A stretch of 40,707 nucleotides of DNA from positions 1-40,707 of the forward strand of contig VGKG01000009.1 in assembly GCA_016867115.1 (NCBI GenBank). The letters are read 5' to 3'. Below, in pieces: positions 8,834-38,179 of this stretch. The notes below the pieces were generated by a model. The model made no database searches and was not told the DNA's origin. It saw only the letters and a list, made by a program, of their open reading frames with translations. Made by a program: the position numbers and the translations under genes. This DNA comes from Candidatus Omnitrophota bacterium (lineage in GTDB: Bacteria; Omnitrophota; Gorgyraeia; Gygaellales; Profunditerraquicolaceae). The first letter of the stretch is position 1, and the number at the start of each line of letters is the position of its first letter.

Positions 8834-8929
8834 CGTGTACCGTTTACCGTGTACCGTTTACCGTAGATACGGTGAACGGTAAACAGCGAGCTATCGATCA
8901 ATAGTGAGCAAGCGGGTAAACGGTAAACG
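8834..8929. repeat. 7-nt-period word array with inverted copies
   Basis: Four tandem 7-mers, CGTGTAC CGTTTAC CGTGTAC CGTTTAC (8834-8861), are followed by inverted units ACGGTGA ACGGTAA (8869-8882) and GGTAAAC GGTAAAC (8915-8928). GTTTACCGT (8856-8864) and ACGGTAAAC (8876-8884) can form a 9-bp stem. The rest of the 142-nt ilvE-mcsA gap holds the mcsA ribosome-binding site (CAGGAGA) and nothing else recognisable. Confidence 0.85.
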
Positions 8930-17752: not shown

Positions 17753-18454
17753 ATGTTTGTTTCAGCGATCATCCTGGCTGCGGGGAGGGGGGAACGCCTT
17801 AAATCAAAACTCCCGAAGCCGCTGGTCATATTAAACTCAAAGCCGGTCATCGGTTATTCTCTGAAACTTTTTACGGCTCACCCCGGGATAAATGAGGTCA
17901 TCATAGTAGCGAATAAAGCGAATCTGGCCCGGATCAGAGAAAGTATCAGCTCCAGAAAGGTCAGGCAGATAGTGATCGGCGGCCTGCGGCGCCAGGATTC
18001 GGTATACAACGGGCTTAAGGCAGTGGATAGCCGCGCGGACCTGGTATTGATCCATGACAGCGCCCGGCCATTTATTGACCGCAAGACCGTCTCCCGCCTG
18101 ATCAGGGAGGCAAGGCAGACGGGTGCAGCGATTGTAGGCGTGCCTTTGGTGCCGACGGTTAAAAAAGTCACCACGTCACAACGGCACAAGGTCACAGGTA
18201 AAACATTTGTCAAAGAAACCTTAGATAGGCGGAATCTGTGGGAGGTACAGACCCCGCAGGCCTTTAGAAAAGAGCTTCTGCTTAAGGCATATAAGAAGTT
18301 CGGAAGGTTGCCCGTGACTGACGACGCGATGTTAGTAGAGAAGCTTGGGGCTCCTGTGATCATGGTAAAGGGCTCCTACGCAAACATCAAGATCACTACT
18401 CCCGAGGACCTGGTGATCGCAAAGGCCCTGGTAAAGAGATGGAAAACCGCATAG
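17753..18454 (+). CDS. ispD: IspD, MEP cytidylyltransferase, with an inserted 8-nt repeat
   Basis: A 233-residue enzyme of the non-mevalonate isoprenoid pathway, converting 2-C-methyl-D-erythritol 4-phosphate and CTP to CDP-ME. The CTP site is IILAAGRGERLKSKLPKPL. VLIHDSARPF binds magnesium and substrate, and LWEVQTPQAF and TDDAMLVE follow. Between GVPLVPTVKKV and FVKETLDRR there are extra residues TTSQRHKVTGKT, encoded by four 8-nt repeat units. They are probably an in-frame insertion in a surface loop. Overlaps ispF by 16 nt. Confidence 0.94.
   Translation: MFVSAIILAAGRGERLKSKLPKPLVILNSKPVIGYSLKLFTAHPGINEVIIVANKANLARIRESISSRKVRQIVIGGLRRQDSVYNGLKAVDSRADLVLIHDSARPFIDRKTVSRLIREARQTGAAIVGVPLVPTVKKVTTSQRHKVTGKTFVKETLDRRNLWEVQTPQAFRKELLLKAYKKFGRLPVTDDAMLVEKLGAPVIMVKGSYANIKITTPEDLVIAKALVKRWKTA
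18167..18198 (+). repeat. 8-nt-period word array inside ispD
   Basis: Four consecutive 8-mers: GTCACCAC, GTCACAAC, GGCACAAG, GTCACAGG, starting at 18167, 18175, 18183 and 18191. Coding impact: a 10-12-residue insertion in a variable loop of IspD. Confidence 0.75.
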
Positions 18455-30190: not shown

Positions 30191-30842
30191 TACTTCTACC
30201 GGATTCTTATGCCTCGGTATTTATGCCGACGGCAGAGAATATACCCTGCGGCTGGAAACTGGCAGGAAACTCTCCGGCCTGATAGCTGTTTATATAAAGA
30301 AGGCGCTTGAGAGCGCGGGGCTGGATATAAGAGAGATCGGCTATTTTGCCTGCGGCCTGGGGCCGGGTTCATTTACGGGCCTACGCATCGGAGTGGCGAC
30401 GGTAAAGGGCCTCTGCTATGCCTTAAAAAAGCCTCTTATCGCAATACCCAGCCTCGATCTTCTGGCTTACAACGCCGTTTCTCTGAAGGGCGCGGTTATT
30501 CCGGTTGTGGATGCGCGAAGAGCTTTGGTTTATTCCTGTATCTACCGCGCCAAAGACAATAAGGTCAAGAGGGCTTCCGATTACCTGCTCTTAACCCCGG
30601 ATAAACTCTTTAAAAAGATCAGGCCCGGTAGTATAATCTTAGGCGATGCCTTAGGCATTTATCAGGATAAGTTCATAAAGGGCGCCGGATGCGCGCGTTT
30701 TCTGGATAAGGATCACTGGTATCCTGAGCCGCACAATCTGATCCGGCTCTCCCTGGAGAAGGCAAGGCTGAGGCAGTTCAGCGATCCGGCAGGCGTCAAG
30801 CCGATCTATCTGTATGCGAAGGAGTGCCAGGTTAAAAAATAG
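30171..30842 (+). CDS. tsaB: TsaB, t6A complex subunit
   Basis: A 223-residue ASKHA-fold protein that binds TsaD and TsaE. ILSIDTSTGFLCLGIY begins the fold, and ACGLGPGSFTGLRIGVATVKGL is the family signature. PVVDARRALVYSCIY follows. Its TAG stop is the first unit of the next word array. Confidence 0.93.
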   Translation: MKILSIDTSTGFLCLGIYADGREYTLRLETGRKLSGLIAVYIKKALESAGLDIREIGYFACGLGPGSFTGLRIGVATVKGLCYALKKPLIAIPSLDLLAYNAVSLKGAVIPVVDARRALVYSCIYRAKDNKVKRASDYLLLTPDKLFKKIRPGSIILGDALGIYQDKFIKGAGCARFLDKDHWYPEPHNLIRLSLEKARLRQFSDPAGVKPIYLYAKECQVKK

Positions 30843-30876
30843 TAACTAGTAAACTAGTAACGAGTAACTAGTAATT
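30840..30876 (+). repeat. 7-8-nt word array between tsaB and alr
   Basis: TAGTAAC (30840), TAGTAAAC (30847), TAGTAACG (30855), AGTAAC (30863), TAGTAAT (30869): five imperfect tandem units, the first containing the tsaB stop. The alr ribosome-binding site AGGAGG follows immediately. Confidence 0.8.
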
Positions 30877-30893
30877 AGGAGGTTGTCGAAGAT

Positions 30894-36826: not shown

Positions 36827-38179
36827 ATGAGAAGAATATACCTTGCTTCTGACTCAAAGGCCCGTAAGAAATTACTGAATATTCTTGGCCTAAAATTCAA
36901 AGTCATTCCTGCTAAGGCGAAGGAAAAAACAGAGCGCGGAAGGCTTTCATATGCGCAGCTTGTAAAAAGCAATGCCTTAAATAAGGCAAAGGAAGTGTCA
37001 GGAAGAGTCAAAAGCGGAATAATTATCAGCGCGGATACGATTGTGGTCCAGGGTAACAAAATCTTCGGAAAACCTAAAAATTTAAAAGACGCCAAAAAGA
37101 TGCTTAAGAAATTGGCCCAGAAACCGCAATGGCTTTATACAGGGATAGCGGTGATCGATAAAGACAAAAACAAGGCTCTGACTGCCTGCGAAAAGACCAA
37201 GATTTTTATGGATCAGCTCACCGACAGAGAGATTAATAATTATTTCCGCCAGGTTTCGCCTCTGGATAAGGCAGGCAGTTTTGATATCCAGGGCAAGGGC
37301 TCATTTTTCATCCGGCGCATCGAAGGCTGCTTCTACAATGTAGTCGGCCTTCCTCTACGAAGACTCTATCTCATGCTTAAAAAATTGAATATACCGGTAT
37401 TTATGATGTTCTGTTGTATGCTGTATGTTGTATGCTGTATGCTGGGCTGTTCGACCGAATACAACATTGTCACCGGAAAGCAGGAGTCCTATTACTACAG
37501 CACGGACAAAGAGACAGTTATGGGCGAATCCATCGCCAGGCAGATAGCGAAGGAGTATAAGTTCGCGGAAGACCCGCTTATTTCCAAGCGCGTAGAGGAT
37601 ATCGGATTAAGGATCGCCGCAGTCTGCGACCGCAAAGAATTAGATTACCACTTTTTTGTCCTGGAGGAAGAAGAGGTGAACGCCGTCTCTTTGCCCGGCG
37701 GTTATGTCTACATCAATAAGGGGCTGATCGATAAGGTCTCCAGCGACGATGAACTGGCCGGGGTCATCGCTCATGAAGTCGGCCACATCGTCGCCCGCCA
37801 CAGCATCAAGAAGCTGCAGGGCCTGCAGGTATATTCCATCTTAAGGATGCTCATCGCCCAGGCTCCGGGAAGCGGTGAGGCAGGAGCGGCGGCAGACAGC
37901 GCCTTTACTGAACTCTTATTGGGCTATTCGCGTGAAGACGAGCTTCTGGCTGACCAGCTGGGCGCGCGCTACAGTAAGCTTGCCGGCTATGACCCGCGCG
38001 GCATGATCACTTTTCTGGAAAAGCTGCAGCAGATAAACCGCAGGAAACCCTTAAGGCCGAAGAGCTATTTTAAGACCCACCCCTATGTCCCGGACAGGAT
38101 CCGCGTGGTGAAAGAGGAGCTTGACGAGGATATCACCTTTGAGGATTATATCAATATTGAACAGAAGCCGCACAAGTAG
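36827..38179 (+). CDS. Maf-like nucleotide pyrophosphatase fused to an M48 lipoprotein protease
   Basis: A single open frame of 450 codons. Residues 1-188 form a complete Maf/HAM1-like pyrophosphatase (LASDSKARKKLL, ISADTIVVQGNKIFGKP, DKAGSFDIQGKG, NVVGLPLRRLYLMLKKL), a house-cleaning enzyme for modified nucleotides. Residues 183-208 read as a lipoprotein signal peptide ending in CCMLGC. After it comes an M48 metalloprotease (BepA/LoiP-like) with HEVGH at 316-320 and SREDELLADQLG carrying the third zinc ligand. Either the protein is a true fusion, or the protease starts internally at ATG 37373 or 37403. I favour two products, because a lipoprotein signal makes sense only near an N-terminus. 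A 7-nt repeat sits at the junction. Confidence 0.85.
   Translation: MRRIYLASDSKARKKLLNILGLKFKVIPAKAKEKTERGRLSYAQLVKSNALNKAKEVSGRVKSGIIISADTIVVQGNKIFGKPKNLKDAKKMLKKLAQKPQWLYTGIAVIDKDKNKALTACEKTKIFMDQLTDREINNYFRQVSPLDKAGSFDIQGKGSFFIRRIEGCFYNVVGLPLRRLYLMLKKLNIPVFMMFCCMLYVVCCMLGCSTEYNIVTGKQESYYYSTDKETVMGESIARQIAKEYKFAEDPLISKRVEDIGLRIAAVCDRKELDYHFFVLEEEEVNAVSLPGGYVYINKGLIDKVSSDDELAGVIAHEVGHIVARHSIKKLQGLQVYSILRMLIAQAPGSGEAGAAADSAFTELLLGYSREDELLADQLGARYSKLAGYDPRGMITFLEKLQQINRRKPLRPKSYFKTHPYVPDRIRVVKEELDEDITFEDYINIEQKPHK
37415..37442 (+). repeat. 7-nt tandem array encoding the signal-peptide core at the maf-M48 junction
   Basis: TGTATGC, TGTATGT, TGTATGC, TGTATGC at 37415, 37422, 37429 and 37436. 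In frame it codes hydrophobic and cysteine residues just before the lipobox. Because 7 is not a multiple of 3, gain or loss of one unit would shift the frame between the two domains. Confidence 0.8.

Follow-up and report, generated by a model that had tools for sequence, protein, structure and literature searches.

A long-standing fusion of Maf and M48 in Omnitrophota: the core of its internal lipoprotein signal was probably rewritten by a dispersed 7/8-bp repeat array

In the Candidatus Omnitrophota bacterium studied here a Maf nucleotide pyrophosphatase and an M48 metallopeptidase are encoded by one uninterrupted reading frame. Most likely this is an ancient fusion of the Omnitrophota, and the core of its internal lipoprotein signal was rewritten in this particular lineage by a 7/8-bp tandem array of a type that is dispersed over the genome. 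The best reading of the wider data is that such heptamer and octamer arrays are recurrently recruited as signal-peptide cores. The frame lies in a stretch of 40,707 nt (contig VGKG01000009.1, hereafter the window), which belongs to a genome of 1.47 Mb in 52 contigs.

The features of the locus are summarized in Table 1. The absence of the maf stop and the joining of Maf and M48 in one frame, as stated in a preliminary description of this DNA, are borne out by the presence of both Pfam domains in the same ORF. PF02545 matches over its full length with 174.7 bits (cut-off 27) and PF01435 with 119.2 bits (cut-off 20.3). Among the nearest solved structures are 1ex2, a Maf, for the first half and 3c37 for the second. 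The Maf motifs S-x-x-R, A-D-T and G-K-P are kept, with S10, R13, A69-D70-T71 and G81-K82-P83 invariant in our alignment A1, and so are G207 and C208 of the lipobox. The zinc-related roles of H316, E317, H320 and E372 are presumed from what is generally known of M48 enzymes. All aligned linkers show the pattern of a lipoprotein signal, consisting of a positive n-region, a hydrophobic core and the lipobox Cys, at an internal instead of an N-terminal position; the assignment is based on this sequence pattern. The AlphaFold model of the fusion consists of two domains and a linker of low confidence (mean pLDDT 71, residues 199-224 below 50).

Table 1. Features of the fused maf-M48 locus. Positions refer to the window.
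Feature	Position	Strand	Basis
Intergenic 8-bp tandem array, unit GTTCTAxx, upstream of maf and abutting the start codon	36783..36823	+	TRF
Fused maf-M48 ORF, 450 aa, ATG to stop	36827..38179	+	no stop between the halves
Maf nucleotide-pyrophosphatase domain, aa 3-186	36833..37384	+	PF02545, E 2e-51
Maf C-terminal helix MLKKLNIPVF, lysine-rich, starting with internal ATG	37373..37402	+	alignment, linker survey
7-bp tandem array TGTATGC/T, ~4 units, encoding hydrophobic core CCMLYVVCCML	37412..37444	+	TRF, shuffles
Lipobox MLGC (Cys208 at 37448-37450)	37439..37450	+	alignment
M48 metallopeptidase domain, aa 254-431	37586..38119	+	PF01435, E 2e-34
HEVGH zinc-binding motif, aa 316-320	37772..37786	+	H316, E317, H320 invariant (A1)
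Glu372, presumed third zinc ligand downstream of HEVGH	37940-37942	+	invariant in A1

TRF reports the array with period 7 and 4.3 copies at 37415-37444 and additionally with period 14 at 37412-37441. The units are imperfect and interrupted (TGTATGC/TGTATGT). That about four of them encode the hydrophobic core just before Cys208 had been noticed previously and agrees with the TRF coordinates. The repeat had been delimited as 37373-37447; the array is indeed contained therein, but it starts ~39 bases later, and position 37373 marks the internal ATG that opens MLKKLN. The period-7 score of this linker core was not reached in any of 100,000 codon shuffles. If one unit is removed or added, the frame ends at aa 237 or 246, with three added units it stays open. 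The expectation that slippage by one unit would split the domains thus holds, at the cost of the M48 half. Such an early end of the frame makes the array a risk to the M48 half. It is located downstream of the position at which unfused relatives have their maf stop. Hence the array is not itself the joint, and its earlier placement exactly at the border of maf and protease has to be corrected. TGTAT-type arrays are found at several other places in the genome of the window. Apart from the array abutting the maf start codon, which is of the same kind but has another unit, further 7-/8-bp arrays are located in intergenic gaps of the window at 8834-8864 and 30836-30878.

A single open frame matching both halves is present in about half of 58 related genomes, including most of the window's family, in which each sampled genome represents a different genus. 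In a few more of the 58 the frame is cut at contig ends. In the alignment the Maf C-terminus and the G-C of the lipobox are invariant and the helix end [MI][LF]KK is conserved; the hydrophobic stretch varies in length. In a phylum-wide Maf search several other families of the class turned out to have the long fused frame, and others a stand-alone maf of ~200 aa. The fused members from other families of the class exhibit the same joint with a short hydrophobic stretch devoid of arrays (nine examples). Family f6, from the same order, has two separate genes for maf and M48 that overlap by a few bases, the M48 ATG being located within the last maf codons (GATGTTTTTTAAG-like). The M48 half is missing altogether in one genome of the window's family (G180; L274, G180:C118), where maf ends with LMFKKLGLY and a stop and is followed by a gene resembling the glycoside-hydrolase-like gene downstream of the fusion in the window. 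Fusion, split and loss thus all occur, but the array neither made the fusion nor keeps it. By these comparisons the fusion is old and clean, and the array is younger and has nothing to do with the joint.

To what extent arrays occur in the linkers was determined for 84 distinct fusion linkers. Period-7 arrays were found in 12/84 and period-8 arrays in 6/84, with 0-1 for other periods. Codon and Markov shuffles gave means of ~1 or less per 84 linkers at every period and < 0.7 at periods 7 and 8. Any 7/8-bp array is present in 18/84 linkers, and the units differ, so that the array is not kept at the locus in relatives. Units of different species are unrelated (CTTTTGC, CTGTCTA, TCTCTGT, TGTTTGCC, CTTGTGTC and others), and many members of the family (G014, G029) have few or no arrays. 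On a tree built from the Maf and M48 domains with the linker excluded, presence and absence of the array change 15 times for 17 array rows, given here as a raw count. The array turnover is therefore fast.

Array-bearing linkers measure 36-39 aa; the one exception, of 29 aa, is the single period-11 case. Arrayless linkers cluster at 29-32 aa, and a second group of 35-39 aa may hold decayed arrays. Where arrays are present, the excess amounts to ~7-8 aa, corresponding to three 7-mers or three 8-mers. We infer that only net changes which keep the frame, i.e. multiples of three units, survive and account for this additional length. Every sampled full-length linker is in the ON frame. Nearly all linker arrays have no stop in any of the three frames, and their coding strand is rich in T.

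Arrays of this kind are also found in signal peptides outside the fusion. In several genomes of family f6 the signal peptide of the unfused M48 gene itself contains a period-7 array. A second, unrelated lipoprotein family, named LysM + M23-like from its sequence motifs, has period-7 arrays in 7/28 signal peptides (expected 0.065). In one genome (G022) the CTGTCTA unit is common to the signal peptides of both lipoproteins and in another (G020) the CTTTTGC unit is; other genomes use other units. A census covered ~2.1 Mb of partial sequence from ten genomes, with ORFs and hydropathy called by a simple procedure. Per 100 kb it gave 39 arrays of 7/8 bp in intergenic DNA and 38 in N-terminal hydrophobic segments (14 in 36 kb, half of these 14 from the single genome G030), whereas the values for internal hydrophobic segments and for other coding DNA were 3.4 and 5.0, respectively. 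N-terminal and internal hydrophobic segments thus differ ~10x in array density (Fisher p = 2e-6).

Among the array periods in 440 kb from the genome of the window, 7 and 8 lie above most others; 14, a doubled heptamer, and a few longer periods are seen as well. With a 7-bp excess and many dispersed, mainly intergenic sites the arrays conform to dispersed heptameric SSRs. Unit words are in common for 10.5% of pairs within genomes, 3.2% between genomes and 2.4% with letter-shuffled units. The unit words are partly genome-specific.

Some individual cases were observed in addition. One signal peptide of G030 (L228:915-1023) contains two arrays: its n-region holds CCAAGCT, its hydrophobic core CTTGTGTC. 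In two genomes of family f6 (L131:3444-3477 and L125:15028-15063) orthologous lipoproteins have the unrelated 7-bp units TCTGTTA and TTTCAGC/TTTCTGC in the same signal peptide. Moreover, an 8-bp array of GTCACAAC type is located at 18167-18196 of the window in a loop of ORF 17753-18454, which looks IspD-like by its motifs. A different array (CAAGGACAC type) resides in seemingly the same loop in a relative, G030 (L227:984-1014). Flexible loops may hence be a second site where arrays are tolerated.

The lipobox and the lysines ahead of the core suggest how the fusion would be processed. Maf would remain cytosolic, and the Lys-rich end of its last helix, MLKKLNIPVF, would at the same time serve as n-region of the internal signal. 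The stretch encoded by the array would insert N-in/C-out. After lipidation by Lgt and cleavage by LspA at Cys208, M48 would be a periplasmic lipoprotein and Maf would retain a short hydrophobic tail. A signal-peptide core presumably needs hydrophobicity and length and would tolerate any hydrophobic filler; an array landing or growing in it would serve at once. T-rich arrays would be accepted in cores, as a T-rich 7- or 8-mer free of stops codes mainly for hydrophobic residues in each of the three frames. Whether an active process copies 7/8-bp arrays within a genome, resulting in its own unit vocabulary with signal-peptide cores as the preferred surviving landing sites, is a more speculative extension which we consider conceivable but doubtful. 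If it were true, the export signals of orthologous lipoproteins would repeatedly be rebuilt from non-coding repeat DNA.

Alternatively, the array could be a phase-variable switch, as the preliminary description proposed; 7-bp slippage would then toggle the M48 half while Maf is always made. The unit length is not a multiple of three, the stops caused by a one-unit change lie behind Maf, and arrays turn over fast between species, all of which would suit a switch. We nevertheless regard it as quite improbable, given just ~4 interrupted units, a unit that changes already between close relatives, the lack of an array at this place in most relatives, an equal frequency of such arrays in intergenic DNA and the ON frame of all sampled full-length linkers. 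Still less probable is an evolving fusion, also put forward earlier, in which the repeat removed the maf stop and thereby joined separate genes. Separate genes with an overlap of few bases at the GATGTTTTTTAAG-like junction of family f6 and the stand-alone maf of some class members would provide its starting point, but nearly every family member and several other families of the class share one and the same joint, for the most part with no array, and the array lies downstream of it. The arrayless fusions in relatives refute this origin for the present locus. As the joint is conserved in this way, the extended frame is not an assembly error either. For most relatives the alignment yields a clean fusion with a repeat-free linker, which the preliminary description itself had named as evidence against its proposals.

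More weight has to be given to the idea that two products are made, the full-length fusion and a lipoprotein initiated at the internal ATG 37373 (MLKKLN...), though we still think it unlikely. MLKKLN together with the hydrophobic stretch and the lipobox would make a normal signal peptide, and 56/84 linkers have an ATG at the MLKK codon. However, in 25/84 linkers no internal ATG precedes the Cys by 8 aa or more, a few lack any ATG, GTG or TTG, and the Met belongs to the C-terminal helix of Maf, which may itself explain its conservation. No clear ribosome-binding site was seen upstream of ATG 37373 in the window. As 25/84 fusions have no such ATG ahead of the lipobox, a start inside the frame is not conserved, though it may be used by some members of the family. 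The least probable explanation, with hardly any credit left, is chance, i.e. accidental repeats arising from T-rich hydrophobic codons. Signal-peptide cores are short and T-rich, but the codon and Markov shuffles stay below 1/84 at periods 7 or 8, an excess is missing at other periods, and internal membrane segments, which are hydrophobic as well, have ~1/10 of the array density. The shuffles and the internal-segment control refute an origin by chance.

Heptameric SSRs have been described as GGGAATC in Xanthomonas, GGGGAYT in Nostoc and TAACTGA in Beggiatoaceae, mainly as intergenic arrays with one or few unit words, and polymerase slippage is cited as a possible reason for the 7-bp excess (PMC4692102, PMC4679880). 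The Omnitrophota arrays resemble these in that they consist of few 7-bp units, are dispersed and mostly intergenic, and 7 bp is over-represented. They differ by many unit words per genome, by the additional period 8 and by the recruitment into coding sequence of signal peptides; neither such a recruitment nor an account of Omnitrophota is given in PMC4692102 and PMC4679880. Contingency loci, e.g. of Haemophilus influenzae, likewise have a unit not divisible by three in or near a gene, so that slippage would shift the frame (PMC2651432, PMC8262952). Compared to these, the Omnitrophota array has few, interrupted units, and relatives carry different arrays or none. By domain matches and conserved motifs the two halves resemble BepA/LoiP-type M48 metalloproteases and Maf/YhdE/YceF pyrophosphatases. 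Unlike those, they form one polypeptide here, with an internal lipoprotein signal. In the open-licence literature, which makes for weak evidence of novelty, nothing was found on repeats in signal peptides, on repeats of Omnitrophota or on a Maf-M48 fusion.

A layout with an internal signal may be mis-annotated by gene callers and signal-peptide predictors. The old fusion would link a cytosolic house-cleaning pyrophosphatase to a periplasmic lipoprotease across an internal signal peptide. With its arrays it offers a countable case in which non-coding repeat DNA would repeatedly become the core of a secretion signal, in essentially any reading frame. This makes the evolutionary renewal of signal peptides and the spread of heptamer arrays testable.
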